DNA of 40,550 nt. Source: a virus. The notes beneath the pieces were generated by a model. It was not told where the DNA came from and made no database searches. It was given only the letters and a program-made list of their open reading frames with translations. The position numbers and the translations under genes were made by a program. Where the stretch lies: the IMG/VR virus record IMGVR_UViG_3300037174_000181, positions 1 to 40,550 of that record. The stretch is one strand, 5' to 3'. This document shows positions 1 to 40,550 of the stretch, in pieces; positions within the stretch are counted from its first letter, which is position 1, and the number at the start of each line of letters is the position of its first letter.

Positions 1-55
1 CCCGGCCTACCCCCCGGCCTACCCCCCGGCCTACCCCCCGGCCTACCCCCCGGCC
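1..55. repeat. 12-bp C-rich tandem repeat, left end of the circular array
   Basis: Four full copies of GGCCTACCCCCC (4-51) followed by GGCC. The same unit fills the other end of the window (40449-40532), so the array is continuous in a circular molecule. The complementary strand carries runs of six G separated by six bases. Confidence 0.95.
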
Positions 56-66
56 AGTAATTTTAC

Positions 67-162
67 GGTACTCTGGTACCACACTCATTTTGTCGTGAGG
101 TATTCTGGTACCACACTCATTTTGTCGCGAGGTACTCTGGTACCACACTCATTTTGTCCCAC
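67..162. repeat. Three tandem 32-bp iteron-like repeats
   Basis: Three contiguous 32-bp units start at 67, 99 and 131. Each begins GGTAYTCTGGTACCACACTC and continues to TTTTGTC. The first two differ at two positions; the third differs only in its last bases. There are no spacers. The location beside an AT-rich stretch and between divergent promoters fits replication-initiator iterons or a repressor operator array. Which of these it is remains inference. Confidence 0.85.
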
Positions 163-244: not shown

Positions 245-350
245 GATACGTCATATGTCATTCTAAAAGTCATTTTTTAACTTATTGATTTTATTATATT
301 ATTTTACTTAAATGACTTAAATGATATAAATGACTATATATAAATCACTA
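245..350. other. AT-rich stretch, candidate replication origin / unwinding element
   Basis: About 100 bases that are far richer in A and T than the rest of this GC-rich genome, lying between the 32-bp iterons and the perfect palindrome. It contains three TAAATGAY-type repeats in a row (about 309-334) and GTCAT motifs. Iterons plus an AT-rich element plus a palindrome is a common origin layout. No initiator protein or DnaA box was recognised, so this is an inference. Confidence 0.4.
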
Positions 351-509
351 TAGTGGAATATGAACAATGTACATGGTATACCATGTACATTGTTCATATT
401 CCATGGTAGCGATTTGAAATCCATGTGTCATCCGCCATTTGCGTCATTTCTCTGCAATATCAAAGGCTTACGCGATGGCAGGCCCGCGGCGAGTGTCATT
501 TTAAGTCAT
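250..509. promoter_or_regulatory. Cluster of GTCAT / ATGAC motifs upstream of the early promoter
   Basis: GTCAT occurs at 250, 257, 269, 427, 443, 495 and 505. Its complement ATGAC occurs at 312 and 330. Several are paired at short spacing, for example GTCATTTTAAGTCATTT at 495-511. The cluster ends about 65 bases before the -35 box at 576. It may be a multi-site operator or initiator-binding region; no cognate protein is known. Confidence 0.4.
354..403. repeat. Perfect 50-bp palindrome without spacer
   Basis: Every base from 354 to 378 pairs with 403 down to 379: 25-bp arms, no loop and no mismatch. Base 353 (G) and 404 (T) break the symmetry. The core is GGTATACC (375-382). It can form a cruciform or long RNA hairpin. 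Possible roles are a dimeric regulator or replication site, or a resolution site. It lies about 170 bases upstream of the early promoter. Confidence 0.95.
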
Positions 510-575
510 TTCAGGGGTTTTTGGCCAGTTTTATAACTTATTGTCGCGGCAATCTGGCGCACCCGGCATCCCCGC

Positions 576-604
576 TTGACATTTTATTAGGCCGTCTCTA
601 TTAT
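576..604 (+). promoter_or_regulatory. Sigma70-type promoter driving the cassette array and right arm
   Basis: TTGACA (576-581), 17-base spacer, TATTAT (599-604): a full consensus -35, a near-consensus -10 and ideal spacing. Transcription should start near 611, which gives a short leader to the first start codon at 636. It is the strongest promoter match I see on this strand and probably makes the early transcript. Confidence 0.8.
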
Positions 605-635: not shown

Positions 636-737
636 ATGACCCGGAGCAAACTTTACGGCGCGGTCAAACTCGGGCGCACCGCCATAGGCGTACAAGCGCG
701 AGCATGGGCTACGCTATACATAAAGGAGGGGGTATAA
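636..737 (+). CDS. Leader mini-ORF carrying only the cassette-end module (33 aa)
   Basis: ATG at 636 lies behind AGGAGCTGGAC. It encodes 33 residues beginning MTRSKLYGAVKLGRTAIG and ending ARAWATLYIKEGV. The last 13 residues are the same ending found on the array members, and the stop TAA overlaps the ATG of unit 1 (TAATG). It lacks the conserved N-terminal domain and the repeat tail. The simplest reading is a translated leader that brings ribosomes to the first cassette and supplies its ribosome binding site, since the KEG codons are the Shine-Dalgarno. It could also be the relic of a collapsed cassette. No other function is visible. Confidence 0.7.
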   Translation: MTRSKLYGAVKLGRTAIGVQARAWATLYIKEGV

Positions 738-1171
738 TGTGCAAAATTATCACGCTGGCGCAGCTAAAAGCCGCAGGCGCGTGCGCCGATGCGCTGCAGT
801 GCTTCGCCGCCGCGTTCGGGGAGAGCACACCGGTGACGCCGTCCCTCGCCGGTAAATACGCGACTCAGTTTAGTTGGGACTGGGCCGCGGGTAATCTTCT
901 CTCAAGGCCCGCACGGGCCGAGTACTATAGGGCCTGCGCGCGCGCACGGGCCGAGTATGATCGAGACCACGAGTACGCCCGGGTCGAGTACGCCCGGGCC
1001 GAGTATGATCGGGCCGTCGCCCCCGCCCCCGCGCAAACCAAGCGCAATAAAGTCATCGCGCGAGCATGGGCTACGTACACTGAGGCCGCCGTGCGCGCGC
1101 AGACCGAGTACGCTAGGGCCTGCGCGCGAGCATGGGCTACACTATACACAAGGGGGGGATATAATGCGTAA
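737..1171 (+). CDS. Array unit 1: N-terminal domain plus EY-repeat tail protein (144 aa)
   Basis: The start is the ATG of the TAATG overlap, with AAAGGAGGGGGTATA before it. Residues 1-60 are the family domain (MCKIITLAQLKAAGACADAL, GESTPVTPSL, GKYATQF, SWDWAA). The tail is rich in RAEY/RVEY and carries a QTKRNK block and two ARAWAT segments. It has the STPVT plus GKYA haplotype. The protein runs past the usual stop into the next gene, ending YTRGGYNA, because the ending module is one base short. The fold is probably all helical. I recall phage and prophage proteins with a similar domain followed by AWAEY-type repeats, but know no function for them. Confidence 0.8.
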   Translation: MCKIITLAQLKAAGACADALQCFAAAFGESTPVTPSLAGKYATQFSWDWAAGNLLSRPARAEYYRACARARAEYDRDHEYARVEYARAEYDRAVAPAPAQTKRNKVIARAWATYTEAAVRAQTEYARACARAWATLYTRGGYNA

Positions 1172-1565
1172 TATTATCACGCTGTCGCAGCTAAAAGTCG
1201 CAGGCGCGTGCGCCGATGCGCTGCGGCGCTTCGCCACCGCGTTCGGGGAGAGCACACCGGTGACCCTGGCTCTCGCCTGCAAGCACGCGGATCAGTTTGA
1301 TTGGGACTGGGCCGCGTTATATCTTCTCCCGGCGCCCGCCCGAGCCGAGTATGGTCAAGACCGCGAGCGCGCACAGGGCGAGTATGATCGAGACCACGAG
1401 TACGCCCGGGTCGAGTACGCCCGGGCCGAGTATGATCGGGCCGTCGCCCCCGCACTCTCCTTGGCTACGTACACTGAGGCCTGCGCGCGAGCGCAGACCG
1501 AGTACGCTAGGGCCTGCGCGCGAGCATGGGCTACGCTATACACAAGGGGGGGATATAATGTGTAA
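1164..1565 (+). CDS. Array unit 2 (133 aa)
   Basis: ATG at 1164 overlaps the end of unit 1 by eight bases, behind a run of seven G that serves as the Shine-Dalgarno. The N-terminal domain starts MRNIITLSQLKVAGACADAL and has the STPVT, LAL and CKHADQF variants. The tail shares its DRDHEYARVEYARAEYDRA stretch with unit 1, then a shortened VAPALSLATYTEACARAQ. Like unit 1 it misses the canonical stop and ends YTRGGYNV inside unit 3. Sharing both tail blocks and the poly-G ending with unit 1 suggests these two arose by a recent duplication. Confidence 0.8.
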   Translation: MRNIITLSQLKVAGACADALRRFATAFGESTPVTLALACKHADQFDWDWAALYLLPAPARAEYGQDRERAQGEYDRDHEYARVEYARAEYDRAVAPALSLATYTEACARAQTEYARACARAWATLYTRGGYNV

Positions 1566-1968
1566 TATTATCACGTTGGCGCAGCTAAAAGCCACGGCCA
1601 CGGGCGACGTGGATCAGTTTGATTGGGACTGGGCCGCGTCATATCTCCTCTCGGCGGCCGCGCGGGCCGAGGGCGATAGACTCCGGGCCGAGGGCGACAG
1701 GCTCATGGCCGATGGCAATAGACTATGGACCGAGGCCCTCAGGCTCATAGACGAGGGCGACAGGCTCGTGGCCGGTGGCAATAGGCTCCGGGCCGATGGC
1801 AATAGACTATGGACCGAGGCCCGCGCGGCCGCCGAGAGGAGATATGACGAGGGCGACAGGCTCGTGGCCGATGGCAATAGGCTCCGGGCCGATGGCAATA
1901 GGCTCCGGACCGAGGCCCTCAGGCTCATAGACGAGGGCGACAGGCTCATGGCCGGGAAGGAGGCTTAA
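1558..1968 (+). CDS. Array unit 3: truncated domain with a heptad-repeat tail (136 aa)
   Basis: ATG at 1558 overlaps unit 2. The domain begins MCNIITLAQLKA, then about 28 residues present in the other units are missing. It resumes at VDQFDWDWAASYLL. The tail differs from all the others: a strict seven-residue period of the type xAxGDRL / ADGNRL / TEALRL, with Leu every seventh position. That is a heptad coiled-coil pattern, whereas the other units are spaced mostly by 11. It contains an internal duplication of TEALRLIDEGDRL and ends MAGKEA without the cassette-end module. So one cassette has swapped in a foreign or diverged tail. Confidence 0.75.
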   Translation: MCNIITLAQLKATATGDVDQFDWDWAASYLLSAAARAEGDRLRAEGDRLMADGNRLWTEALRLIDEGDRLVAGGNRLRADGNRLWTEARAAAERRYDEGDRLVADGNRLRADGNRLRTEALRLIDEGDRLMAGKEA

Positions 1969-1972
1969 CCTG

Positions 1973-2344
1973 ATGACATACCGCGCAATTTACGACGACG
2001 CCACCACGCGCGCGCGGGCCGAGTGCGACCAGGCTGTCAAGCGCGCGCAGGTCGAGTTCGACCAGGCTGTCGAGCGCGCGCGGGCCGAGTATGTCATGGC
2101 CGCTACGCCCGCGTGGACCGCGTACGATCGGGCCGTTGCCCCCCCTAAGGCCACCACATTCGCGCGGGCGCGCGCCGAGTGTAGGGAGGCCACCGCACTC
2201 CCCTGGGCTACGTACACTGAGGCCGTCGCGCGCGCGCGGGCCGAGTATGCGACGGTCTTCCTGTTTGCGCGGGGCAAGCGTAGGAAGGCCATCACACTCG
2301 CGCGCTTGGCCTACGCCCGTGCGCGCGCAGACCGAGCGCGATAA
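1973..2344 (+). CDS. Array unit 4: tail-only member, frameshifted end (123 aa)
   Basis: ATG at 1973 follows AAGGAGG with a nine-base spacer, four bases after the unit 3 stop. It has no N-terminal domain and is repeat tail from the start (MTYRAIYDDATTRARAEC, then QAVKRAQVEFDQAVERARAEY). It stops at 2344, but another frame continues without interruption as AQTERDKTSARAWAHLYIKAGI and ends in the TAATG of unit 5. This indicates a frameshift near the 3' end that separates the gene from the normal ending. It is probably a decayed cassette, though it is still open and has a good ribosome binding site. Confidence 0.6.
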   Translation: MTYRAIYDDATTRARAECDQAVKRAQVEFDQAVERARAEYVMAATPAWTAYDRAVAPPKATTFARARAECREATALPWATYTEAVARARAEYATVFLFARGKRRKAITLARLAYARARADRAR

Positions 2345-2392
2345 AACCAGCGCGCGAGCGTGGGCTCATCTATACATAAAGGCGGGGATATA

Positions 2393-2809
2393 ATGTGCAA
2401 AATTATCACGCTGTCGCAGCTAAAAGCCGCAGGCGCGTGCGCCAATGCGCTGCAGCGCTTCGCCGCCGCGTTCGGGGAAAGCGTGCAAGTGACGCCGGCC
2501 CTCGCCGGTAAATACGCGGATCAGTTTGATTGGAAATGGGCCGCAGATAATCTTCTCTCAATACCCGCGTGGACCGAGTATGAGGCGGCCCGTGTGGCCG
2601 CTTGGGCCAAGTATGAGACGGCCCGTGTCAAGTATGAGACGGCCGTGCTAGTCGTATTAAATAGCCCCCCGAGTGCGCGGGACGGCGTCGTGCAATGCCC
2701 GCACGGGCCGTCTCATATGAGCCGACGCGCCATCAACGCTGCGCAAACCAAGCGCAATAAAGCCATCGCGCGGGCGTGGGCTACATTATACATAAAGGAG
2801 GGGATATAA
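2393..2809 (+). CDS. Array unit 5 (138 aa)
   Basis: The start at 2393 follows AAAGGCGGGGATATA, a one-base variant of the usual ribosome binding site. The domain carries VQVT plus GKYADQF and DWKWAADNLL. The tail begins PAWTEYEAARVAAWAKYE. It then has a diverged VLNSPPSARDGV block (LLNSPPSEQDGV in units 6 and 7) and QTKRNKAIARAWATLYIKEGI. It ends TAATG into unit 6. It is the first unit of the regular part of the array, where every boundary uses the same stop/start overlap. Confidence 0.8.
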   Translation: MCKIITLSQLKAAGACANALQRFAAAFGESVQVTPALAGKYADQFDWKWAADNLLSIPAWTEYEAARVAAWAKYETARVKYETAVLVVLNSPPSARDGVVQCPHGPSHMSRRAINAAQTKRNKAIARAWATLYIKEGI

Positions 2810-3273
2810 TGTGCAAAATTATCACGCTGGCGCAGCTAAAAGCCGCAGGCGCGTGCGCCGATGCGCTGCAGCGCTTCGCCGCCGCGTTCGGGGAGAGCAC
2901 ACCGGTGACGCCGTCCCTCGCCTGCAAGCACGCGGATCAGTTTGATTGGGACTGGGCCGCAGATAATCTTCTCTCGGCGGCCGCGCAGGTCGAGTATGAC
3001 CAGGCTGTCAAGCGCGCGCAGGTCGAGTATGAGACGGCCGCCGCGCCCGCGCGGGTCAAGTATGCCGCCGCCGCCGCGCCCGCGCTAGCCTTGTTAAATA
3101 GCCCCCCGAGTGAGCAGGACGGCGTCGCCCGCGCGCACTTATGGGCTAAATATGATCGGGACCGCGAGCGCGCGCAGGTCGAGTACGATCGGGCCGCCGC
3201 CGCCGCGCTAGCCGAGTACGATAGGACCTGCGCGCGGGCGTGGGCTCATCTATACATAAAGGAGGGGATATAA
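2809..3273 (+). CDS. Array unit 6 (154 aa)
   Basis: TAATG start with AAAGGAGGGGATATA. The domain has CADAL, STPVT, PSL and CKHADQF. The tail contains QVEYDQAVKRAQVEYE, also seen in unit 4, then AAAAAPALALLNSPPSEQDG and ARAHLWAKYDRDRERA, shared with units 7 and 9. It ends CARAWAHLYIKEGI. The WAHLY variant rather than WATLY recurs in unit 13 and in the lost frame of unit 4, which again suggests shuffling of end modules among units. Confidence 0.8.
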   Translation: MCKIITLAQLKAAGACADALQRFAAAFGESTPVTPSLACKHADQFDWDWAADNLLSAAAQVEYDQAVKRAQVEYETAAAPARVKYAAAAAPALALLNSPPSEQDGVARAHLWAKYDRDRERAQVEYDRAAAAALAEYDRTCARAWAHLYIKEGI

Positions 3274-3275
3274 TG
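3258..3275 (+). promoter_or_regulatory. Representative cassette junction: ribosome binding site inside the upstream C-terminus, TAATG
   Basis: AAAGGAGGGG (3258-3267), ATA, then TAATG (3271-3275). In the upstream frame this reads K-E-G-I-stop; in the downstream frame the ATG starts the next unit. The same junction, with ATA or GTA, is found at 735-739, 2807-2811, 3801-3805, 4361-4365, 4891-4895, 5511-5515, 6047-6051 and 6475-6479. The Shine-Dalgarno is near ideal, so each stop should be followed by efficient re-initiation. Confidence 0.9.
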
Positions 3276-3803
3276 TGCAAAATTATCACGCTGGCGCAGC
3301 TAAAAGCCGCAGGCGCGTGCGCCAATGCGCTGCAGCGCTTCGCCGCAGCGTTCGGGGAAAGCGTGCAAGTGACGCCGTCCCTCGCCGGTAAATACGCGGA
3401 TCAGTTTAGCTGGGACTGGGCCGCAGATAATCTTCTCCCGGCGCCCGCGCGGACCGAGTATAAAATAGTCGAAGCGCGCACTTGGGCCGAGTATGAGATA
3501 GTCGTCGCGCGCGCTTGGGCCGAGTGCGCTCAGGCCGTCGCCCCCGCACAGGCCAAGTACGCCGCCGCCGCCGCGCCCGCGCTAGCCTTGTTAAATAGCC
3601 CCCCGAGTGAGCAGGACGGCGTCGCCCGCGCGCACTTATGGGCTAAATATGATCGGGACCGTGAGCGCGCGCTAGCCGAGTATGATCGGGCCGTCGCCCC
3701 CGCGCGAACCAAGCGCAATAAAGCCGTCGCCCCCGCGCGAACCAAGCGCAATAAAGCCGTCGCGCGAGCGTGGGCTACGCTATACACAAAGGAGGGGGTA
3801 TAA
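3273..3803 (+). CDS. Array unit 7 (176 aa)
   Basis: TAATG start. The domain has CANAL, VQVT, PSL, GKYADQF and SWDWAADNLLPAPA. The tail starts TEYKIVEARTWAEYEIVVAR, a block reused in units 11, 12 and 13. It continues with AAAAAPALALLNSPPSEQDG and a back-to-back duplication of VAPARTKRNKA (33 bp each, about 3688-3755). It ends ARAWATLYTKEGV. The fresh 33-bp duplication shows that tails change length in frame by tandem duplication. Confidence 0.8.
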   Translation: MCKIITLAQLKAAGACANALQRFAAAFGESVQVTPSLAGKYADQFSWDWAADNLLPAPARTEYKIVEARTWAEYEIVVARAWAECAQAVAPAQAKYAAAAAPALALLNSPPSEQDGVARAHLWAKYDRDRERALAEYDRAVAPARTKRNKAVAPARTKRNKAVARAWATLYTKEGV

Positions 3804-4363
3804 TGACCAAAATTCTCACGCTGTCGCAGCTGAAAGCCGCAGGCGCGTGCGCCGGTGCGCTGCGGCGCTTCACCGCCGCGTTCGGGGAGAGCACACCGGT
3901 GACACCGGCCCTCGCCTGCAAGCACGCGGATCAATTTAGCTGGAACTGGGCCGCGGATAATCTTCTCTCGGCGCCCGCTCAGGCCGCGTACGATCGAGCT
4001 ACCGAGCGCGCTTGGGCCGCGTACGATCGGGCCGCCGCGCCCGCCCGGGCCAAGTACGCTGTCGCCGCCGCGCGCGCTTGGGCCGCGTACGATCGGGCCG
4101 CCGCGCCCGCGCGGGTCAAGTACGCCGCCGCCGCGCCCGCGCTAGCCTTATTAAATAGCCCCCCGAGTGAGCGGGACGGCGTCGCCCGCGCGCGCCTATG
4201 GGCCAAGTATGATCAAGACCGCGAGCGCGCGCAGGTCGAGTATGATCGAGACCGCGAGTACGCCCGGGCCGAGTATGATCGGGCCGTCGCCCCCGCGCGA
4301 ACCAAGCGCAATAAAGCCGTCGCGCGAGCGTGGGCTACGCTATACACAAAGGAGGGGGTATAA
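3803..4363 (+). CDS. Array unit 8 (186 aa)
   Basis: TAATG start. Units 8-10 form a subgroup with MTKIL instead of MCKII and with CAGALRRFTAAFG. This unit has STPVT, PAL and CKHADQF. The tail is the clearest 11-residue repeat of the array: successive AYDRAAAPARA / KYAVAAARAWA / AYDRAAAPARV blocks put Tyr exactly every 11 residues. LLNSPPSERDGV, YDRDREYARAEYDRA and ARTKRNKAVARAWATLYTKEGV follow. Hendecad spacing predicts a long continuous helix or a coiled coil with little supercoiling. Confidence 0.8.
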   Translation: MTKILTLSQLKAAGACAGALRRFTAAFGESTPVTPALACKHADQFSWNWAADNLLSAPAQAAYDRATERAWAAYDRAAAPARAKYAVAAARAWAAYDRAAAPARVKYAAAAPALALLNSPPSERDGVARARLWAKYDQDRERAQVEYDRDREYARAEYDRAVAPARTKRNKAVARAWATLYTKEGV

Positions 4364-4893
4364 TGACCAAAATTCTCGCGTTGTCGCAGCTAAAAGCCGC
4401 GGGTGCGTGCGCCGGTGCGTTGCGGCGCTTCACCGCCGCGTTTGGAAAGAGCGTGCAAGTGACGCCGTCCCTCGCCGGTAAATACGCGGATCAGTTTAGC
4501 TGGGACTGGGCCGCAGATAATCTTCTCCCGGCGCCCGCCCGGGCCGCGTACGATCGAGCTACCGAGCGCGCTTGGGCCGAGTATGAGACGGCTGCCGCGC
4601 CCGCGCGGGTCAAGTACGCCGCCGCCACCGCCGCCGCGCGGGTCAAGTATGCCGCCGCCGCCGCGCCCGCGCTAGCCTTGTTAAATAGCCCCCCGGGTGA
4701 GCGGGACGGCGTCGCCCGCGCGCACTTATGGGCTAAATATGATCGGGACCGTGAGCGCGCGCTAGCCGAGTATGATCGAGACCGCGAGTACGCCCGGGCC
4801 GAGTATGATCGGGCCGTCGCCCCCGCGCGAACCAAGCGCAATAAAGCCGTCGCGCGAGCGTGGGCTACGCTATACACAAAGGAGGGGGTATAA
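4363..4893 (+). CDS. Array unit 9 (176 aa)
   Basis: TAATG start. The domain begins MTKILALSQLK, has GKSVQVTPSL (Lys where the others have Glu) and GKYADQF. The tail starts like unit 8 (AAYDRATERAWA), then has VKYAAATAAARVKYAAAAAP, apparently a local duplication of ARVKYAAA. It continues with LLNSPPGERDGV and the same EYDRDREYARAEYDRA and TKRNK ending as unit 8. So it combines the 8/10-type start, the 5/7-type haplotype pair and an 8-type tail. Confidence 0.8.
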   Translation: MTKILALSQLKAAGACAGALRRFTAAFGKSVQVTPSLAGKYADQFSWDWAADNLLPAPARAAYDRATERAWAEYETAAAPARVKYAAATAAARVKYAAAAAPALALLNSPPGERDGVARAHLWAKYDRDRERALAEYDRDREYARAEYDRAVAPARTKRNKAVARAWATLYTKEGV

Positions 4894-5513
4894 TGACCAA
4901 AATTCTCGCGTTGTCGCAGCTGAAAGCCGCGGGCGCGTGCGCCGGTGCGTTGCGGCGCTTCACCGCCGCGTTCGGGGAGAGCACACCGGTGACCCTGGCC
5001 CTCGCCTGCAAGCACGCGGCCCGGTTTAGCTGGGACTGGGCCGCAGATAATCTTCTCCCGGCGCCCGCCCGAGCCGAGTATGATCAAGACCGCGAGCGCG
5101 CACAGGGCGAGTACAAGACGGCCATCGCGCCCGCCCGGGCCTATTACGCCACAGTCGTCAAGCTTGCGGAGGCCGAGTACGAAAAGGCCCATGCTCGCGA
5201 GCGGGCCGAGTACGATAAGATCACCGCACAAGCGTGGGTCGAGTATAAGAGGGCCGTCGCCCCCGCCCGGGTCGAGTATGACCAGGCCGTTACACAGGCG
5301 CTAGTTGAGCACAGGAGGCCTAAATATGAGCATGCCTCCGCGCCTGTATGGGTCGAGCGCAGGAAGGCCCGCGTGGGGGCGTGGGTCGAGTACGATCGGG
5401 CCGTCGCCCCCGCGCGAGCCGAGTACGCCCGGGCCGTTACACAAGCGCTAGTTGAGTACAGGCAGGCCTGCGCGCGAGCATGGGCTACACTATACACAAA
5501 GGAGGGGATATAA
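4893..5513 (+). CDS. Array unit 10, the longest member (206 aa)
   Basis: TAATG start. The domain starts MTKILALSQLK with STPVT, LAL and CKHAARF (the usual ADQF is replaced). The tail is long: RAEYDQDRERAQGEYKTA, a unique YYATVVKLAEAEYEKAHA stretch, then RAVAPARVEYDQAVTQALVE and a diverged HRRPKYEHASAPVWVERR copy. It ends AVTQALVEYRQACARAWATL and YTKEGI. The VTQALVEY end module is shared with units 11 and 12 and absent from units 1-9, a directional spread along the array. Confidence 0.8.
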   Translation: MTKILALSQLKAAGACAGALRRFTAAFGESTPVTLALACKHAARFSWDWAADNLLPAPARAEYDQDRERAQGEYKTAIAPARAYYATVVKLAEAEYEKAHARERAEYDKITAQAWVEYKRAVAPARVEYDQAVTQALVEHRRPKYEHASAPVWVERRKARVGAWVEYDRAVAPARAEYARAVTQALVEYRQACARAWATLYTKEGI

Positions 5514-6049
5514 TGTGCAAAATTATCACGCTGGCGCAGCTGAAAGCCGCAGGCGCGTGCGCCGATGCGCTGCAGCGCTTCGCCGCAGCGTTCGGGGAAA
5601 GCGTGCAAGTGACACCGGCCCTCGCCTGCAAGCACGCGGATCAGTTTAATTGGGACTGGGCCGCAGATAATCTTCTCCCGGCGCCCGCCCGAGCCGAGTA
5701 TGAGATAGTCGTCGTGCGCGCGGCCGCCGAGTATGAGACGGCCGCCGCGCCCGCGCGGGTCAAGTACGCCGCCGCCGCCGCACAGGCCAAGTACGCCCGG
5801 GCCGAGTACGCTCAGGCCGTCGCGCGCGCCCGGGCCAAGTGCAATCGTACCAGCGCATCGGCGCAAGCCAAGTACGATAGAGCCTGCGCCAATGCGCTGC
5901 AGCGCTTCGCCTCCGCGTCCGGGGAGTATGATCGGGACCGTGAGCGCGCGCGAGCCGAGTACGCCCGGGCCGTTACACAAGCGCTAGTTGAGTACAGGCA
6001 GGCCTGCGCGCGAGCGTGGGCTACATTATACATAAAGGAGGGGATATAA
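5513..6049 (+). CDS. Array unit 11, tail contains a copied domain fragment (178 aa)
   Basis: TAATG start. The domain has CADAL, VQVT, PAL and CKHADQF, a combination seen only here and in unit 12. In the tail, after SASAQAKYDRA, comes CANALQRFASASGE. This is nearly the same as the CANALQRFAAAFGE of the N-terminal domain in other units, at DNA level as well (about 5885-5926). A piece of domain has therefore been inserted into the helical tail. It ends VTQALVEYRQACARAWATLY and IKEGI. Confidence 0.8.
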   Translation: MCKIITLAQLKAAGACADALQRFAAAFGESVQVTPALACKHADQFNWDWAADNLLPAPARAEYEIVVVRAAAEYETAAAPARVKYAAAAAQAKYARAEYAQAVARARAKCNRTSASAQAKYDRACANALQRFASASGEYDRDRERARAEYARAVTQALVEYRQACARAWATLYIKEGI

Positions 6050-6477
6050 TGTGCAAAATTATCACGCTGTCGCAGCTGAAAGCCGCGGGCGCGTGCGCCA
6101 ATGCGCTGCAGTGCTTCGCCGCCGCGTTCGGGGAAAGCGTGCAAGTGACGCCGTCCCTCGCCTGCAAGCACGCGGATCAGTTTAGCTGGGGCTGGGCCGC
6201 GTCATATCTTCTTTCAAGGCCCGCGCGGGCCGAGTATAAAATAGTCGAAGCGCGCGCCCGGGCCAAGTGCAATCGTACCAGCGTATCGGCGCAAGCCAAG
6301 TACGATAGAGCCTGCGCCAATGCGCGGCAGCGCTTCGCCTCCGCGTCCGGGGAGTATGATCGGGCCGTCGCCCCCGCGCGAGCCGAGTACGCCCGGGCCG
6401 TTACACAAGCGCTAGTTGAGTACAAGCAGGCCATCGCGCGAGCATGGGCTACGCTATACATAAAGGAGGGGGTATAA
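6049..6477 (+). CDS. Array unit 12 (142 aa)
   Basis: TAATG start. The domain has CANALQCF, VQVT, PSL, CKHADQF and SWGWAASYLLSRPARAEY. CF and SRPARAEY are shared only with unit 1, at the far end of the array. The tail has EYKIVEARARAKCNRTSVSA, then the same inserted domain fragment as unit 11 (here CANARQRFASASGE), YDRAVAPARAEYARAVTQAL and the IARAWATLYIKEGV ending. The mixture of unit 1-like and unit 11-like segments is a clear sign of exchange between distant units. Confidence 0.8.
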   Translation: MCKIITLSQLKAAGACANALQCFAAAFGESVQVTPSLACKHADQFSWGWAASYLLSRPARAEYKIVEARARAKCNRTSVSAQAKYDRACANARQRFASASGEYDRAVAPARAEYARAVTQALVEYKQAIARAWATLYIKEGV

Positions 6478-6875
6478 TGTGCAAAATTATCACGCTGTCG
6501 CAGCTAAAAGCCGCGGGCGCGTGCGCCAATGCGCTGCAGCGCTTCGCCGCCGCGTTCGGGGAGAGCACACCGGTGACCCTGGCCCTCGCCGGTAAATATG
6601 CGGATAAGTTTGATTGGGAATGGGCCGCGTCATATCTTCTCCCAATGCCCACGCGGACCGAGTATGAGATAGTCGTCGCGCAGGCACGGGGTGGGTATAG
6701 TAGGGCTATTGAGGAAGCGTGGGCCGATTACGAGGAGGCCATCGACCCCGCACAGGCCGAGTATGATCGCGCCGAGTACGCCCGGGTCAAGTGCAATCGT
6801 ACCATCGCCTCTGCGCAAGCTAAGTACGATAGGGCCTGCGCGCGAGCGTGGGCTCATCTATACATACAGGTATGA
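6477..6875 (+). CDS. Array unit 13, last member (132 aa)
   Basis: TAATG start. The domain has CANAL, STPVT, LAL, GKYADKF and DWEWAASYLLPMPT. The tail carries more acidic residues than the others (GGYSRAIEEAWADYEEAIDP), then KCNRTIASAQAKYDRACARA and WAHLYIQV. The cassette-end module is degenerate here: the Shine-Dalgarno codons are lost and the stop TGA overlaps the next ATG as ATGA. This marks the right boundary of the array. Confidence 0.8.
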   Translation: MCKIITLSQLKAAGACANALQRFAAAFGESTPVTLALAGKYADKFDWEWAASYLLPMPTRTEYEIVVAQARGGYSRAIEEAWADYEEAIDPAQAEYDRAEYARVKCNRTIASAQAKYDRACARAWAHLYIQV

Positions 6876-9751: not shown

Positions 9752-10570
9752 ATGGCTGATAGCTATCAACAGCGCGGTAATCCGCGATACCCCAAGCGGC
9801 GCCAGTACGTCGGCCTCGACATAATGCCGGGAGGCCCGAGAGAACTCGCCGACGGACGGCTGAACCTCTGGTCAGGCTGGGGCGTCGAGCCGGCTCCCGG
9901 GAACTGGAGCCGCATGAAGAAGCATATTTCATCGATCTTGGCGAACGGCGACCCGCACGCGGCGGAGTACATAACCCGTTGGACCGCCTGGGTTTTGCAG
10001 CATCCGGCGGAGCAGCCGGGCGTGGCTCTGACTATTCAGGGGAGCAAAGGCTCGGGTAAAGGTTTGTATTTTGATACACTGCAAAGGATGTTTGGCCGAC
10101 ACTCCCTCGCTGTCGCAAGCCGAGAGCATCTACTTGGCCGGTTCAACCGGCACTTGCTGGACAGTCTGTTCGTCTTTATTGACGAGGGATTCTGGGCGGA
10201 GGATAAAAAATCGGAGGGGGTGCTCGAACGGCTAATAACGGATCGAACGATGATAGTTGAAATTAAAGGTGTCGACGCGGTCGAAGCCCGGAATCGCATT
10301 GCTTTTGCGATCGCCACCAACGCCGAGTGGGTTGTTCCCGCGGGGGCCGGCGAGCGGCGCTATGCCGTGTTCGAGACCAACGATAAATATGTAAAAGGTC
10401 ATAACCCGCAAGCGACGATCGATGCCTATTTCGAACCGCTCTATGCCGAGCTGGAGGGCGGCGGGCGGGCGGCGATGCTGTATGATTTACTGGCGTTGCC
10501 GCTCGACACGTGGCACCCGCGAACAGCGGCCTTGGCTGAACAATTTGGATGGATAGAGAAACATGGCTGA
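9752..10570 (+). CDS. Duplicated stand-alone helicase domain, chimeric gene (272 aa)
   Basis: The first 15 residues (MADSYQQRGNPRYPK) are the start of the next gene. Then follow about 240 residues of the upstream helicase domain, then a short new end (FGWIEKHG). Walker A is GSKGSGKG and Walker B FIDEG; both are intact, as is the arginine-rich GERRYAVFE region. Ten substitutions and a four-codon deletion separate it from copy A. It has no primase domain. It could be a functional paralog that assembles with the full-length protein, or a neutral duplicate. The ATG at 9752 has a good Shine-Dalgarno; a TTG seven codons upstream is in frame but less likely. Confidence 0.8.
   Translation: MADSYQQRGNPRYPKRRQYVGLDIMPGGPRELADGRLNLWSGWGVEPAPGNWSRMKKHISSILANGDPHAAEYITRWTAWVLQHPAEQPGVALTIQGSKGSGKGLYFDTLQRMFGRHSLAVASREHLLGRFNRHLLDSLFVFIDEGFWAEDKKSEGVLERLITDRTMIVEIKGVDAVEARNRIAFAIATNAEWVVPAGAGERRYAVFETNDKYVKGHNPQATIDAYFEPLYAELEGGGRAAMLYDLLALPLDTWHPRTAALAEQFGWIEKHG
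9795..10542 (+). repeat. Helicase-domain segment, copy B of a direct repeat
   Basis: Counterpart of 8623-9382. The left junction lies inside the reading frame of the MADSYQQ gene (after CCCCAAG). The right junction rejoins at AATTTGGATGGAT, which also occurs at the end of the primase-helicase gene (about 9675-9687). That short homology probably served the recombination. Confidence 0.9.
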
Positions 10571-16336: not shown

Positions 16337-17334
16337 TGCTGAAATTACCCGCCTACCTCTCCCCTGCCAACCCAGGGCTTATGAACAAGCTCATGGGGGG
16401 GCTCGGTGCTAGCCAGCCGCCGACGATAAGCCGGCGGAATAATCGCTTTACACTCGTCCAAGCGAACGGGGAGACCCATGGGGCTCTCTTGCCTAGCCTG
16501 ACCCTCGACGTAGTGATTGTCGGCGGCAACGAGCATTCTTCTAAGGTCTACTATGAGAATGCTTATAACCCCGAGGAAGCCTCGGCGCCCGACTGCTGGT
16601 CGGACAATGGTGTGGGGCCGTCATCGCAAGCCGCAAAACCCCAGAATGATCTCTGCGCGACCTGCCCGCAGAACAAGTGGGGCTCGCGGGTATCTAAAGT
16701 GTCCGGGAAGCCGGTTCAGGCTTGCCAGACATACAAAAAGATTGCGTGCCTTGTCATGGGCGACCGGAGTGGAACTGTCTATTTGCTGGCCATCCCGCCG
16801 GCTTCTCTTGGCGCTTGGCGCGGCTATACCGCCCACCTCGCAGGGCAAAACGTCAGCGCCGAGCAGATCGTAACGCGCTTGATGTTTGCCGATAAAGAAC
16901 TCGGCGTTCTCAAGTTTGAGCCGGTCGGTTTCATCGCTGAGGACTTCGTCGAACCGATCAAAAAGATTATTGAAAGTGGCGAGGCGGACACTGTGACCGG
17001 GGCGAATGACCAGCCAAGCGGTACAGCGCTACAGGCGCCGCGTGAAACAAGGCAAATCTCCGCGCAACCCGAGTACCCCGTACCCGAGAGCATCCCGCGA
17101 CGGGCGCGCAGGACCGCGGCGCAAATGCAAGAGGCACAGTCTGTGCCTAATGCGGCGCCGGAGAAGGACAACGAGGTTGAGGCGGAGAAGGACGAGGAGG
17201 TTGAGGCGGAGATCACGCGCTACCGCGCGGAACTCGCGGCGAAAAAAGCAACCCCGGCTCCGGGCAAAACGCCGGTGCCGCGGGAGGATATTAGTAACAT
17301 GCTCAACGCGGCCCTCAAATTGACGACTCGTTGA
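16333..17334 (+). CDS. Phage protein with Cys cluster and acidic tail, candidate ssDNA-binding/recombination factor (333 aa)
   Basis: The first 200 residues contain VVIVGGNEHSSKVYYEN, PDCWSDNGVGPSS and a Cys cluster CATCPQNKWGS...ACQTYKK that could bind zinc. From about 215 the chain is low-complexity and Pro/Ala-rich, with a duplicated acidic repeat (NEVEAEKDEEVEAE). A folded domain followed by an acidic tail resembles phage SSB proteins, but this is inference; homologs I recall are annotated as hypothetical. It is the last gene of the right arm. Its final 20 bases overlap the convergent ATP-grasp gene, and no terminator hairpin is visible. Confidence 0.75.
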   Translation: MMLKLPAYLSPANPGLMNKLMGGLGASQPPTISRRNNRFTLVQANGETHGALLPSLTLDVVIVGGNEHSSKVYYENAYNPEEASAPDCWSDNGVGPSSQAAKPQNDLCATCPQNKWGSRVSKVSGKPVQACQTYKKIACLVMGDRSGTVYLLAIPPASLGAWRGYTAHLAGQNVSAEQIVTRLMFADKELGVLKFEPVGFIAEDFVEPIKKIIESGEADTVTGANDQPSGTALQAPRETRQISAQPEYPVPESIPRRARRTAAQMQEAQSVPNAAPEKDNEVEAEKDEEVEAEITRYRAELAAKKATPAPGKTPVPREDISNMLNAALKLTTR

Positions 17335-18640
17335 AGACCATCCCCGTAGCATATCCGTGAGCTTGGATGACGGGTAACTGCTTTGCTAGTCTATCACCAA
17401 TGTCGGTTCTGTACATAGGATTGTTCGGGACCGACAGCCTTTTCAGGCGCCGGTAGACTTTCTGCTTGGCGTCGTAGACCGTATTACCTACAGATGACAT
17501 GACAAGTACATAGTCGCCAGCCGTGACTGGTATCAGTCGTGTCTCAACCTTCCCCCCCACGTCGACCGGAGCTTCGCCTTGCTGCATTTCACAAAAATGA
17601 ACTCGTGGCAGCAACCCGTCAGTAATTCCATAGACCGGGATTCCAACAACTTCTTTTCGCGTCAAGTGAGAATACGGGTAATCCGGGATAGAGAGGACGA
17701 CGCCCATGGCTATTAGATCAAGCGTAAAGTTGCCCGCGTCGAGGCCTTGTGAAAGGTCATGCAACCATTGTACGCAGTCTCCGGTGTGGAGGGCCTGCTG
17801 TATATTGTAAGTCGGCCAGCCGGGCCGCATCGTGAATTCCAGCGGCCACGCGTGTCCTTGCTCGTCAAGGATACAATTAACGTCAATGTACCCGACGTAA
17901 CCGGCTTTCGCCAAAAGTTCACCCAGCGGCTCGAGCATTATGCGCGCGAGTTTTGACCGGCGCACGTAGCGTAGAACTGTCCCTTGCTCGCCGGTGGCTA
18001 CTCCTTTATCACCGTCCATCAATTTCTTAAACTCGAAATTCTCACACCACCCCGTGTTGAACCCGCCGGGGCCAAACCATCCGCCGACCGCCATTTCGAC
18101 GCCCTCGACAAATTCTTGCAGAATGAACGGCGCCTTGATCTTGCCGAACTTCTGCCACCGCTGGAGCATGAAGACCATGTCAGCGGGGGTCTTTGCGCAG
18201 TAGCTCAGCGCTTTGTCGGCATCGCCGGAGGGCTTTGACACGAACCGCCGGCCTTCCTTTTTCACGTAAACTATGGCTTTATTGTAATCGTTGAACTCCT
18301 TGCAAGGGGGCGTTTCTATACCGTGCTTGCGCAGTACCTCCATGCCGATACCGCGATCGAGTTCCCATAGCGCCGTTTCGGGCGAGGGGCCGATGATCGG
18401 CACCCCTAGTGCACGCCACGTGTCAAGCTCGCGCAGGTATTTTGTATTGTCAGCGAGGAAAACCAGGTCCGGCCAATGCAGCCAAGGGTGAAAGTCCTCA
18501 ATTATCTCGACGAGCCCGCGGCCGATTGCCTTGGTCTTCTCAGTCTGCCGGATGAACAGCTTGACCTTGTGGCCGTCGCGTTGCGCCCGCATGGCAAAGT
18601 CGAGAGCGGCGCCGGCCTGGTCAATGATCAGAAGTCTCAT
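17315..18640 (-). CDS. PurD-like ATP-grasp enzyme (phosphoribosylamine-glycine ligase family, 441 aa)
   Basis: A full-length protein of about the size of PurD. The N-terminal Rossmann-like part is LLIIDQAGAALDFAMRAQRD; the PurD-style GPSPETALWE and the ATP-binding RRFVSKPSGDADKALSY follow. The ATP-grasp core is ILQEFVEGVEMAVGGWF and YIDVNCILDEQGHAWPLEFT. PurD joins glycine to phosphoribosylamine in purine synthesis; ATP-grasp enzymes as a class make amide-type bonds. A phage copy could boost purine supply or act in DNA or protein modification. It is the last gene of the late operon (ATGA overlap with the 1130-aa protein), which is an unusual place for a metabolic gene. Confidence 0.8.
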   Translation of the reverse strand: MRLLIIDQAGAALDFAMRAQRDGHKVKLFIRQTEKTKAIGRGLVEIIEDFHPWLHWPDLVFLADNTKYLRELDTWRALGVPIIGPSPETALWELDRGIGMEVLRKHGIETPPCKEFNDYNKAIVYVKKEGRRFVSKPSGDADKALSYCAKTPADMVFMLQRWQKFGKIKAPFILQEFVEGVEMAVGGWFGPGGFNTGWCENFEFKKLMDGDKGVATGEQGTVLRYVRRSKLARIMLEPLGELLAKAGYVGYIDVNCILDEQGHAWPLEFTMRPGWPTYNIQQALHTGDCVQWLHDLSQGLDAGNFTLDLIAMGVVLSIPDYPYSHLTRKEVVGIPVYGITDGLLPRVHFCEMQQGEAPVDVGGKVETRLIPVTAGDYVLVMSSVGNTVYDAKQKVYRRLKRLSVPNNPMYRTDIGDRLAKQLPVIQAHGYATGMVFNESSI

Positions 18641-36537: not shown

Positions 36538-36912
36538 CTACTTTGCGGTCTGGAGTGTCGCCCCGGCGGCGGTCTGCGCGGTCTGGAGTGTCGCCCCGGC
36601 GGCGGTCTGCGCGGTCTGGAGTGTCGCCCCGGCGGCGGTCTGCGCGGTCTGGAGTGTCGCGTTTTCAGCCTGGAGTGTCGCAATCTGCGCCGTCAACGCC
36701 GTATTGATTCCGGCAATAAGGGTCGGCAGTGCAAGGCCCCCTGCCCCCGCCTGCTCCGGCGTCATCGCCTGGCTATAGGACAGCATAGGATCACCGAAAA
36801 CATCGGTTCCGGGAACCGCCACGATTACGTGATAATCCGGCGCTTGCGTACTACCTGGAGGCTGGCCGCGATAGAGAAATTCGTAGACATAGGCATTGGA
36901 CGGAAAGGTCAT
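36538..36912 (-). CDS. Small protein with 11-residue QTAQTAAGATL repeats (124 aa)
   Basis: Starts MTFPSNAYVYEFLYRGQPPG. The N-terminal 90 residues look folded (APDYHVIVAVPGTDVFGDPM). From about 85 it is a parallel-coiled-coil-like helix with repeats of TLQTAQTAAGA encoded by 33-bp direct repeats. The chain stops at TAG, but a different frame continues KVEKLMKDLDAAKAPVGSGK before ending at the portal start, which suggests a frame change near the end. Possibly a trimeric fibre partner or chaperone. Confidence 0.6.
   Translation of the reverse strand: MTFPSNAYVYEFLYRGQPPGSTQAPDYHVIVAVPGTDVFGDPMLSYSQAMTPEQAGAGGLALPTLIAGINTALTAQIATLQAENATLQTAQTAAGATLQTAQTAAGATLQTAQTAAGATLQTAK
36542..36660. repeat. 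33-bp tandem repeats in coding sequence
   Basis: Three near-identical copies of a 33-bp unit (GGTCTGGAGTGTCGCCCCGG...) plus a partial diverged one, each adding 11 codons in frame. A length-variable helical stalk is the simple reading. Confidence 0.9.
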
Positions 36913-36935: not shown

Positions 36936-38180
36936 TTACGCGATTGCAGTGACGTTGGTGCCGGCGATTTTCCAGGCCGTGCCGTTGTCGGTGACAAGGC
37001 CGCCGGTGCCGGCGCCGGTGCCTTCTTGCAGGCCGACGCCGTTGAACATCCGGCAATTGCTGGCGAAGACCATGCGGCCTGCGGTTCCGGCCGCCGGCAG
37101 CGTCGTGACGGTGTAGGAAGGAAGATAGTACGACCGGTCGGACCCGATCGCCGTCGCTCCGCCGATAGCGATGGCGCCGTTCAACACCGTCTTCGTGACG
37201 GAGGAATTTCCAATCACAACCTCGTTGCTGGCGGTGACTTGTGCGCCGTTACCGATGGCTGTGGAGTTGGTTACGCCGTCAATGCTGGAATTTGCACCAT
37301 AACCAAGGAATGTACTGTAGGACATGGTTTGGAGAGAAACGGAATTGTTGTAGCCGGCATACATTCCATTGGCGGTGTTGTTACCGCCTGTCGTGTTGGA
37401 AAAGAGCGCCCACAATCCATTGGCGACGTTGTTACCGCCTGTCGTGTTGGAATAGAGCGCCTGATATCCATTGGCGGTGTTGTTACTGCCTGTCGTGTTG
37501 GAAAAGAGCGCCCACAATCCATTGGCGGCGTTGTTGCCGCCTGTCGTGTTGAAATAGAGCGCCTGATATCCATTGGCGGTGTTGCTACCGCCTGTCGTGT
37601 TGGAAAAGAGCGCCTGAAATCCACTGGCGACGTTGTTACTGCCAGTTGTGTTGGAAACGAGCGCCTGAATTCCATTGGCGACGTTGGCACCGCCTGTCGT
37701 GTTGGAAAAGAGCGCAACCACTCCATTGGCGGTGTTGGCACCGCCTGTCGTGTTGGAATAGAGCGCCTGATATCCATTGGCGGTGTTGTTACTGCCTGTC
37801 GTGTTGGAATAGAGCGCCTGATATCCATTGGCGGTGTTGGATACTATGCTCCCCCCGCCTAATCCGACGGTAAGGCTATGAATGGTGGCATCGCCGGTGA
37901 TAGCGATGCCGCCGGATATGATCGGCGCTGTCAGGGTCGTGAAGTTACCAGCCGCCGGCGTCGTACCACCGATCACTGTACTATTGATCGTGCCGCCGGA
38001 GATCACTGTACTATTGATCGTGCCGCCGGAGATCGCTGTACTATTGATCGTGCCGCCGGAGATCACCAGCTTGGTCCCGACAACTGCAAGCTGCGCGTTT
38101 ATCGCGTTTACGAGCTGGTTGAGGGCATTGACGAGATCCTCGGCAGGGGCCTGCGAAAAAAGTGCAATTGGAATGCTCAT
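36936..38180 (-). CDS. Fibre/adhesin-like protein with 17-residue NTANGYQALYSNTTG repeats (414 aa)
   Basis: Starts MSIPIALFSQAPAEDLVNAL. Residues about 40-70 hold three ISGGTINST repeats. Next is GGTTPAAGNFTTLTA, a motif common in tail-fibre shafts. About ten 17-residue repeats (N-T-A-N-G-Y-Q-A-L-Y-S-N-T-T-G-x-N) follow, reminiscent of YadA-head/tail-fibre trimeric beta rolls. The C-terminal part contains AIGNGAQVTASNEVVIGNSS, again YadA-like. It is probably a receptor-binding or decorating fibre. Its place between terminase and portal, far from the other tail genes, is unusual. Confidence 0.75.
   Translation of the reverse strand: MSIPIALFSQAPAEDLVNALNQLVNAINAQLAVVGTKLVISGGTINSTAISGGTINSTVISGGTINSTVIGGTTPAAGNFTTLTAPIISGGIAITGDATIHSLTVGLGGGSIVSNTANGYQALYSNTTGSNNTANGYQALYSNTTGGANTANGVVALFSNTTGGANVANGIQALVSNTTGSNNVASGFQALFSNTTGGSNTANGYQALYFNTTGGNNAANGLWALFSNTTGSNNTANGYQALYSNTTGGNNVANGLWALFSNTTGGNNTANGMYAGYNNSVSLQTMSYSTFLGYGANSSIDGVTNSTAIGNGAQVTASNEVVIGNSSVTKTVLNGAIAIGGATAIGSDRSYYLPSYTVTTLPAAGTAGRMVFASNCRMFNGVGLQEGTGAGTGGLVTDNGTAWKIAGTNVTAIA
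37366..37842. repeat. 51-bp tandem repeats in the fibre-like gene
   Basis: Nine to ten imperfect 51-bp units, phased at for example 37366, 37417 and 37468 (CCATTGGCGGTGTTG start). Each encodes one 17-residue turn. Units fall into a few types (GYQALYS, LWALFS, GVVALFS) that alternate, as expected from unequal exchange. Confidence 0.9.
37977..38061. repeat. 30-bp tandem repeats encoding ISGGTINSTV
   Basis: Three copies of a 30-bp unit (GATCACTGTACTATTGATCG...), nearly identical, in frame within the N-terminal part of the fibre-like gene. Confidence 0.85.
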
Positions 38181-38205: not shown

Positions 38206-40209
38206 TCACCCTCGCGCGGAAATATAGCGACGCCCGTCCGGCGCCGTCTGCCAATTTATATTATTTTCATTTTGAACGCCAGCCCCCCGCAACATAGCGG
38301 CGAACGCTTCGACTCCGGTCATAAGGACAGCGTAGGAATTCTCCTCGGGCTCCGAAGCGTCCACGAGCCGGGAGAACCCCCCCGCCAATGCGCGCAGCGT
38401 CCATGTTGCCCGGTTTGAGACCCTTACGGTGGCCATCCCGTGCACCCGGGCGCGAAGCATCCTACGCAATTCCTCCCGGCCTTGCAAGGGGGCGCCGCCG
38501 CGCGACAGGTCTACGGGGATGCGCTTGGCCGCCGGCCGCAGCCCTATCAGATCATAGAGACCCCAATGACTTTGCGGTGCAACACAGCGGAGTGTTTCAC
38601 GTGAAACACGCGGGTCAGGGAGCTTACCATCCCCGACCCGCCGGAAGGGGGTCTCGACAGAGGCCTCTTGTATAATGTCGGCAAGCTCGGCGCCGGGGTC
38701 GCCTTCATGCAGCCAGTCGGCGAGAATCAAGAGCTGGCCATAGGAGAGCTGGCAAAGGACAGCCGTCGTCACTTTGCCGTCTGAGTTGACCGCCAGCCAT
38801 AGAGGAGCCTTGGCGGGCCGCAGATCCTCGGCCATGTGCTCGACATTAAACTCTTCGTAGACCGGCACCCCGAGCTTCATCTTCAGAGCATAGGCTAAAG
38901 CGTTCGGTGCGTCTATATCCCCCGAAGGGAAGCCGAGCAGTTGCGCCCGCAACTCCGGTAGATCGCGCGCAAACTCAACCTCCCCGGCTCGGAAGTAGGG
39001 TTGAAGCCCGCGGATGAAGTCAAGCTTACCTCGTGGCGCATGTAGTGCTCGCATAGGCAGGACTTGCCCGCGTGCCTTCTGCTGCGCGCGGATAGGCTGC
39101 ATGAGCCACTCGTTAAGGCCGGTTTCCTCAACGCCGATGGCAACAGGGTGATATTCCTCTTCGACCGCAAATATATCGTCAATAATCTCGCCGGGCATCA
39201 GCTTCTTGGCAAAAGCATCCCATATAACGAGCTTGCGGCCTACCCACGACCATACAACCTTGCCGGTCGTCGCGCTCTTTTTATTGGTCGTGCGGGCCGG
39301 GTCATACATCGCGTAGACCGCATGCCACGACCTAAGCTGAGGAACAACGCGTATCATCTCAGGGGTGAACACCTGCGTCGCCGGGTTGGTTGCCTGACAA
39401 AGATATTCCTGCACATAAATATCCGGCTTACCGAGATCATTTAGTTCTTCTCGTTTCTTCTCTACCCACTCGACCGAGTAACGCGAAGCCCATGTCGAGA
39501 CAATACGCCCTGTACTATCTTTATGTATGACCGGATAGGTTTTCGAATACCACGACGCCGCTTTTGCAAGCGTGGGGGCGAGCGCCTCGGGGTGCAAGGG
39601 GGTCGCCCCCATGCGCTTGCGACCCCCCGGATCCATCGCCGGGACCACGGTAGACCCGTACCAAGTGCGGGTCTTGTCGCGCGCCTCGGGGGTCGCTACC
39701 GACACGTCATCCTCGAGGTCGTCCATAAACAACCAATCAGGCCGGTGCTCGAGATGCTTAACCCCGCGGAGGGACTGCCCCCGGCCGTAAGCTTGCAACA
39801 TGACGCCGTTGGACAACGTGACCTTGGCTTCAGTCCATATAGCTCCGGGGCCGATCTCAAAGAGCAATTGCAGGACCTCATTAGTCTCTATCTCATGCTT
39901 GATGGCGCGCAGGCGCTCGACAGCGCGCTGCTCACTCTCCCCCAGGATCAGAGCATTGTGGATGTGCTGGAAGCAGGCTTCGAGGGCGGTAGCCTCTTCC
40001 CCGATGGTTGACTTGGCACTGTCGCGGAAGGCCAGCGTGAGCACGTTGGGCCGGGTGCTGTGCCAGTCTTTAATAATCTCATGGTGAAAGGGGGGAGTCG
40101 GATGGGAGTGCCGGTGACCGAAGCACACCGCATGGGCGAGCACGTGGTCCTGGCCGATGGCCAAGAGAATCTCCGCGCGATCTGCTTTAGAAAATGACGG
40201 GGCCACCAT
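38206..40209 (-). CDS. terL: Terminase large subunit (667 aa)
   Basis: ATPase: Walker A-like LAFRDSAKST at residues 59-68 and Walker B WLFMDDLEDD at 159-168. Nuclease: YAMYDPARTT with the first Asp and, further on, GDIDAPNALAYALKMKLG with the last acidic residue; VEETGLNEWL is between. The plan matches T7/N4-like podophage packaging motors. The C-terminus extends beyond the nuclease by over 200 residues, with SGKV-type beta segments. First gene of the left arm, about 90 bases after its promoter. No small subunit was recognised. Confidence 0.92.
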   Translation of the reverse strand: MVAPSFSKADRAEILLAIGQDHVLAHAVCFGHRHSHPTPPFHHEIIKDWHSTRPNVLTLAFRDSAKSTIGEEATALEACFQHIHNALILGESEQRAVERLRAIKHEIETNEVLQLLFEIGPGAIWTEAKVTLSNGVMLQAYGRGQSLRGVKHLEHRPDWLFMDDLEDDVSVATPEARDKTRTWYGSTVVPAMDPGGRKRMGATPLHPEALAPTLAKAASWYSKTYPVIHKDSTGRIVSTWASRYSVEWVEKKREELNDLGKPDIYVQEYLCQATNPATQVFTPEMIRVVPQLRSWHAVYAMYDPARTTNKKSATTGKVVWSWVGRKLVIWDAFAKKLMPGEIIDDIFAVEEEYHPVAIGVEETGLNEWLMQPIRAQQKARGQVLPMRALHAPRGKLDFIRGLQPYFRAGEVEFARDLPELRAQLLGFPSGDIDAPNALAYALKMKLGVPVYEEFNVEHMAEDLRPAKAPLWLAVNSDGKVTTAVLCQLSYGQLLILADWLHEGDPGAELADIIQEASVETPFRRVGDGKLPDPRVSRETLRCVAPQSHWGLYDLIGLRPAAKRIPVDLSRGGAPLQGREELRRMLRARVHGMATVRVSNRATWTLRALAGGFSRLVDASEPEENSYAVLMTGVEAFAAMLRGAGVQNENNINWQTAPDGRRYISARG

Positions 40210-40400: not shown

Positions 40401-40454
40401 CCCCCCTGAAAACCCGAGTTCGGCCTACCCCCCTGAAAACCCGAGTTCGGCCTA
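40401..40454. repeat. Two tandem 27-bp repeats joining the 12-bp array
   Basis: CCCCCCTGAAAACCCGAGTT plus CGGCCTA, at 40401-40427 and 40428-40454. The units are identical. Each ends in the same CGGCCTA as the 12-bp repeat that follows, so the short unit looks like an internal deletion of the long one. Confidence 0.9.
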
Positions 40455-40532
40455 CCCCCCGGCCTACCCCCCGGCCTACCCCCCGGCCTACCCCCCGGCC
40501 TACCCCCCGGCCTACCCCCCGGCCTACCCCCC
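40449..40532. repeat. 12-bp GGCCTACCCCCC tandem repeat (seven copies)
   Basis: Seven exact copies, continuing as the four copies at the left end of the window if the molecule is circular. The opposite strand reads G6-TAGGCC repeatedly, which can form G-quadruplexes. Copy number may be collapsed by assembly. Confidence 0.95.
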
Positions 40533-40550
40533 GGCCAGTAATTTTACGGT
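40482..40550. other. Terminal overlap identical to bases 1-69 (circular contig)
   Basis: The last 69 bases equal the first 69, including 18 unique bases after the repeat array (GGCCAGTAATTTTACGGT). This is what an assembler leaves when it closes a circle; length without the overlap is 40,481 bp. A real 69-bp terminal repeat is possible but less likely. Confidence 0.85.

Follow-up and report, generated by a model that had tools for sequence, protein, structure and literature searches.

Genome organization around an AT-rich gap

The stretch analyzed here (hereafter, the window; 40,550 bp) is one whole IMG/VR record and comes from an uncultured bacterial virus (phage). Its genes are arranged in two modules that diverge from an AT-rich gap: a leftward module of structural genes, the last one encoding the terminase large subunit, and a rightward replication module that encodes a tandem family of short proteins, a primase-helicase, a partial copy of the latter, an HTH protein, a family-A DNA polymerase, an exonuclease, a VRR/NERD-like nuclease, and a SNF2-type helicase (Table 1). 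A long palindrome lies in the gap, 6.8 kb from the primase-helicase gene and 10.4 kb from the HTH_3 gene, which is separated from it by the paralogue array and the primase. The VapE-like match of the primase-helicase stays under the cut-off, and this DUF5906/VapE-like protein is a putative member of superfamily 3. Protelomerase (PF16684) had no match in the window (E ≤ 10) or in any of 27 related records or genomes (E ≤ 0.001), and neither tyrosine recombinase (PF00589; E ≤ 1) nor serine recombinase (PF00239) matched in the window.

Table 1 Positions of the features described in the window
Feature	Position	Strand	Remarks
32-bp direct repeat	67..158	.	2.9 copies; terminase side; GGTACC in each copy
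Left GTCAT(T) box cluster	250..334		boxes 250, 257, 269 on +; 311-312, 329-330 on -
200-bp segment of highest AT content	261..460	.	73% AT
Quasi-palindrome, 74 bp	342..415		ungapped arms 342-378 and 379-415
Perfect palindrome, 50 bp	354..403		arms 354-378 and 379-403
Left inner dyad ACAATGTACATGGT	364..377	.	6/7 pairs; centre 370/371
Right inner dyad ACCATGTACATTGT	380..393	.	6/7 pairs; centre 386/387
Right GTCAT(T) box cluster	427..510	+	boxes 427, 443, 495, 505
Sigma70-like promoter TTGACA-17-TATTAT	576..604	+	11/12 consensus match only; reads into early genes
Tandem short-protein family	737..6641		11 copies (tblastn)
Primase-helicase, 815 aa	7245..9692	+	DUF5906, 68.3 bits; PHROG DNA primase; candidate origin initiator
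HTH_3 (Cro/XRE-type) protein, 65 aa	10869..11066	+	28.7 bits (cut-off 23); candidate binder
PurD-like ATP-grasp gene	17315..18640	-	phosphoribosylamine-glycine ligase; end of structural module
33-bp tandem repeat	36545..36660		exact; 3.5 copies; structural module
51-bp tandem repeat	37365..37839		9.3 copies; structural module
Terminase large subunit	38206..40209	-	first gene of divergent late module
12-bp array CCCGGCCTACCC	40448..40550 and 1..55		genome junction, just upstream of terminase

Several other features of the coding regions were recorded. Members of the tandem short-protein family (MCKIITLAQLKAAGACADAL...) share 73–100% identity with the first copy over 55–56 residues, each copy coming after a GGATATAATG-like start and being followed by 11-residue repeats; one or two copies occur in three relatives (G008, G014, and L093), and the three members that were searched had no Pfam or PHROG match. 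The primase-helicase gene is partly duplicated (8617–9353 versus 9789–10526, 96% identical DNA), which yields a 279-aa DUF5906 fragment adjoining the full gene. Phage record MW202796.1 contains a homologue of the PurD-like gene (47% identity), and the 33-bp and 51-bp repeats are probably tail-protein repeats.

The first 69 bases of the window are identical to its last 69 and fall within the 12-bp tandem array. A second record (IMGVR_UViG_3300037238_000146) matches the window with 100% identity over every stretch compared; it is broken elsewhere (between window positions 4363 and 4795) and crosses both the end junction of the window and the palindrome without interruption. Because the ends are identical and the second record spans the junction, the genome is circular or circularly permuted, with a length of 40,481 bp after removal of the 69-bp terminal repeat, and the palindrome is internal to it. 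Both assemblies continue through the palindrome and, being identical wherever compared, are uninformative about selection on it. Contigs of this phage break in or near the 12-bp array: three more records (L007, L008, and L090) stop at or just before it, short of the palindrome.

Structure of the palindrome and its surroundings

The first-pass annotation had described a perfect 50-bp palindrome without spacer, and this description was confirmed: the 25-nt arms are fully complementary, and the sequence at 354–403 is TGGAATATGAACAATGTACATGGTA/TACCATGTACATTGTTCATATTCCA. The arms of the enclosing quasi-palindrome pair at 33 of 37 positions (89%). Between 3.6e-11 (uniform bases) and 7e-11 (local composition) perfect palindromes of such size are expected per window. 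It is also the highest-scoring short-spacer palindrome of the window (25, with the runner-up at 14) and, when folded as single-stranded DNA, reaches -23.8 kcal/mol (z = -9.7), a value that none of 200 shuffles equaled. The dyad ACnATGTACATnGT is present in both arms; the centres of the two inner dyads are separated by 16 bp, and the central dyad of the palindrome lies at 378/379. We found no further copy of ATGTACAT in the window outside the palindrome, and a second good operator with the dyad of the palindrome was not found beside any gene, a single copy with one mismatch (27146) lying inside a structural gene.

Some other origins of such a structure were set aside. Assembly fold-back is ruled out, since the flanks are not inverted copies of each other and the palindrome and both its flanks are unchanged in the second IMG/VR record. 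No terminator-like site was found at 354–403, where the DNA is AT-rich with zero spacer, as opposed to the GC-rich stem, short loop, and T-run of an intrinsic terminator; the whole window has no Rfam match. To our knowledge, it bears no good resemblance to a Xer/dif-like site.

The palindrome is centred between the two GTCAT(T) clusters. There are seven copies of GTCATT in the region 200–620, compared to 0.30 in shuffled sequences, and none of 2000 shuffles contained as many. The 32-bp repeat on the terminase side is possibly a second iteron set. Scanning for sigma70-like promoters gave four sites at a lower or equal cut-off, against 1.7 expected. Detrended cumulative GC skew is lowest at 232, some 120 bp away from the palindrome, and highest at 17211, which is the convergent gene border. 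Since the genes on both arms point away from the gap, the skew minimum is confounded with gene direction and is by itself no proof of an origin. The AT-rich gap probably also holds the replication origin.

Private elements in the gap of related phages

A capsid protein search returned 56 loci in viral contigs, and with the capsid alignment at least 567 relatives of the capsid protein were found in viral contigs; bacterial genomes, Paraburkholderia contigs among them, gave 10. The gene order terminase, gap, HTH or tandem-family gene, polymerase, exonuclease, nuclease, and helicase recurs in the relatives, and the terminase adjoins the gap throughout the family. The sequence of the palindrome does not recur in this way. 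Exact searches with its 34-nt core (viral contigs) and 24-nt core (viral and genome contigs) matched only the identical record, no conservation of the 421 bp around it was found in the phage collection, and it was present in none of 40 relatives in the region upstream of the terminase, including the four whose terminases are the closest homologues of the window's (L093, G011, G008, and G013). Four further records with 78–86% capsid identity (L009–L012) do not cover the gap. Absence from close relatives had been named in the first-pass annotation as evidence against the palindrome; at the level of sequence this is what was found, but the only really close relative covering the site is the identical record.

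Palindromes of other sequence (score ≥12, short spacer) were identified in the gap of 6 of the 40 relatives, a count made up of 5 of 16 (G011, G017, G023, G024, and L093), 0 of 21, and L101 from the group L099, L101, and L102. In 364 kb of control DNA from 21 capsid loci, which is mostly coding and of higher GC content, three palindromes scored ≥11, and two of these (in G018 and G024) fell within the terminase-side gap, with one elsewhere. Arrays of short repeated words are frequent in the gap of relatives, palindromes occasional. Using the criterion, applied region by region and uncorrected for the number of regions, that one 7-mer be repeated more often than in all but at most 5 of 200 shuffles, we found private arrays in 12 of 20 AT-rich gaps and in 0 of 20 other regions (AT cut-off of 0.55, set after inspection of the data; G036, with a region of <1200 bases, and the near twins G030 [of G023] and G025–G027 [of G024] do not enter the counts). 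The repeated word varies by phage (e.g., TATCACA, TATGACA, GCTTACA, TTAGCAA, CGTATCA, AATCAAA, and ACTAAGC, among others). In G023, the palindromes are made of the private TATCACA; one of them begins some 50 bp ahead of a Cro-like HTH start, and a palindrome of about 38 bp consists of two abutting dyads on the same plan as in the window. In G022, TATGACA words cluster around a Cro-like HTH start. In both phages, private words form dyads beside such a start. From 19 AT-rich relatives, 10 ORFs that come first on the early side of the gap were chosen for their HTH-like look; 9 of them passed a Pfam HTH cut-off and one (G039) had no match. They include close kin (L099, L101, and L102), so that independent lineages are not being counted. 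Homologues of the HTH_3 protein of the window were found near the gap in G011, L093, G037, and G032 (phmmer). The palindrome belongs to one phage alone, in a gap where private elements are the rule.

A putative composite operator

The palindrome is most likely a protein docking site rather than a hairpin chromosome end, and by itself it is probably a striking but ordinary regulatory site. On the available sequence evidence, we tentatively read it as a composite operator that serves a regulator of the Cro/XRE type within a divergent control/origin region, an assignment to which we give a little less than an even chance. The two inner dyads, ACAATGTACATGGT and ACCATGTACATTGT, with their centres 16 bp apart, would form one two-fold symmetric operator, to be occupied by two dimers, or by one tetramer, of a small HTH regulator of this type, and its occupancy would determine how divergent transcription (or initiation) is balanced. 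We infer the binding of an HTH protein at the palindrome, the number of subunits, and the effect on transcription from several observations: the palindrome sits between divergent modules with a dyad in each arm; an HTH_3 protein, the natural candidate binder, is encoded here and has homologues near the gap in four relatives; 9 of the 10 HTH-like gap neighbours tested in relatives pass an HTH cut-off; private word arrays are confined to the AT-rich regions in the comparison above; and the private words of G023 and G022 adjoin a Cro-like HTH start. Two characterized regulators, SaPI1 Stl (PMC9638917) and PY54 Cro (PMC4488713), bind near-palindromic or palindromic sites, which also favors an operator.

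Other observations speak against a regulator site of this kind. In the window, the HTH_3 gene is not beside the palindrome, the dyad has no second good operator copy beside any gene, and 50 bp of perfect symmetry exceeds what one dimer needs. The clustered word GTCATT differs from the word of the palindrome itself, and two different binders may be needed. The lack of the palindrome sequence in the four relatives with the closest terminases likewise counts against it. The operator option of the first-pass annotation is supported indirectly, by the encoded HTH_3 protein and by a gap that is usually HTH-flanked in relatives, but in the window the HTH gene is far from the site; the operator stays putative.

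The main rival explanation, rather unlikely in our estimate, places the core of a replication origin at the palindrome, where the primase-helicase would assemble as two opposed rings, on the duplex or on an extruded hairpin. The primase-helicase is encoded in the window, the iteron-like GTCATT clusters lie on both sides and are centred on the palindrome, the tract is AT-rich, the skew minimum is close by with the maximum at the convergent border, and the hairpin folds well beyond its shuffles. Moreover, the skew minimum is no more than 4.6 kb from the terminase start in 7 of 7 genomes examined. However, GC skew tracks gene direction, and the minimum in relatives is often off the AT-rich gap (by 4.5 kb in G011 and by 3.2 kb in G014, on the other side). 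Most relatives with related replication genes have no such palindrome, the primase gene is not adjacent to the site, and no close primase was found in the searched stretches of G011, G008, and L093. The AT-rich tract, the flanking boxes, and the position of the skew minimum, the last of these confounded with gene direction, fit an origin, in keeping with the cruciform or origin element suggested in the first-pass annotation. A more specific version, which we consider doubtful, holds that the core is recognized in hairpin form or by two opposed primase-helicase rings, between symmetrically placed iteron clusters, and that each phage of the family re-invents its boxes and palindrome, so that every initiator would co-evolve with a private origin of its own. 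The operator and the origin are compatible, as the regulator may act at the origin.

It is less probable again that the palindrome is a mutational product, in which template switching perfected a quasi-palindrome that survived by chance in one lineage, without function of its own, amid DNA with many binding sites. The still imperfect outer arms, the confinement of the sequence to one lineage, and the 34 of 40 relatives without a strong palindrome in the gap are consistent with this scenario, but 50 bp of perfect symmetry are unstable and would not last, the palindrome is at the centre of two box clusters, and palindromes of other sequence recur in the gap of relatives and hardly elsewhere. A DNA-packaging site or another site near the terminase (a pac-like signal or a host-protein binding site) is very improbable: on the circle, the palindrome precedes the terminase gene by about 0.7 kb, and the gap adjoins that gene throughout the family, but no small terminase was recognized, the 12-bp array is nearer to the terminase, and nothing ties the palindrome to packaging. 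A telRL-type telomere resolution site of a linear plasmid-prophage with hairpin ends, which the palindrome resembles in size and symmetry, as it does in being internal, like the palindromes of telomere phages in their circular or virion form (PMC10612081), can practically be dismissed, because the record has no protelomerase gene, adjacent or anywhere else, no tyrosine or serine recombinase match, and no large unassigned gene beside the palindrome, which is itself not conserved; the early doubt about a protelomerase target was borne out.

The palindrome marks the control region, and probably also the origin region, of a large group of uncultured phages. With private word arrays in the corresponding gap, mostly next to an HTH gene, these phages provide a natural set for studies of how regulator and site change together. 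Our literature search, which addressed mechanisms and not the group by name, found no paper on this phage group.

Comparison with known systems

Telomere phages carry the protelomerase gene immediately upstream of telRL (PMC10612081). The window shares with the sites of N15, PY54, and vB_YenS_P840 a long palindrome, a weaker flanking inverted repeat, and an internal position in a circular genome, but differs from these phages in the lack of a protelomerase gene in its record.

The initiators of the P4 and SaPI satellites combine helicase and primase activity (PMC7145576). Like their iteron-type origins, the window has a primase-helicase gene, an AT-rich tract, and boxes flanking a symmetric centre; unlike in those systems, the primase gene is 6.8 kb away and the origin is a putative one.

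Closest to our preferred reading, a composite operator, are the XRE/Cro systems. The SaPI1 repressor Stl, of the XRE type, binds as two tetramers to four near-palindromic operators in a divergent intergenic region (PMC9638917), and the target of PY54 Cro is a 16-bp palindrome (PMC4488713). In contrast to these operators, the two dyads of the window are fused into one perfect palindrome, the HTH gene is not adjacent, and the flanking clusters are of another word; this operator is a putative one. Like the lambda OR/OL, SaPI1 Stl, and PY54 OR3 operators, the window has dyads in an AT-rich divergent intergenic region, and, as in such systems, it encodes a small HTH_3 protein, with an HTH gene neighbouring the gap in its relatives.
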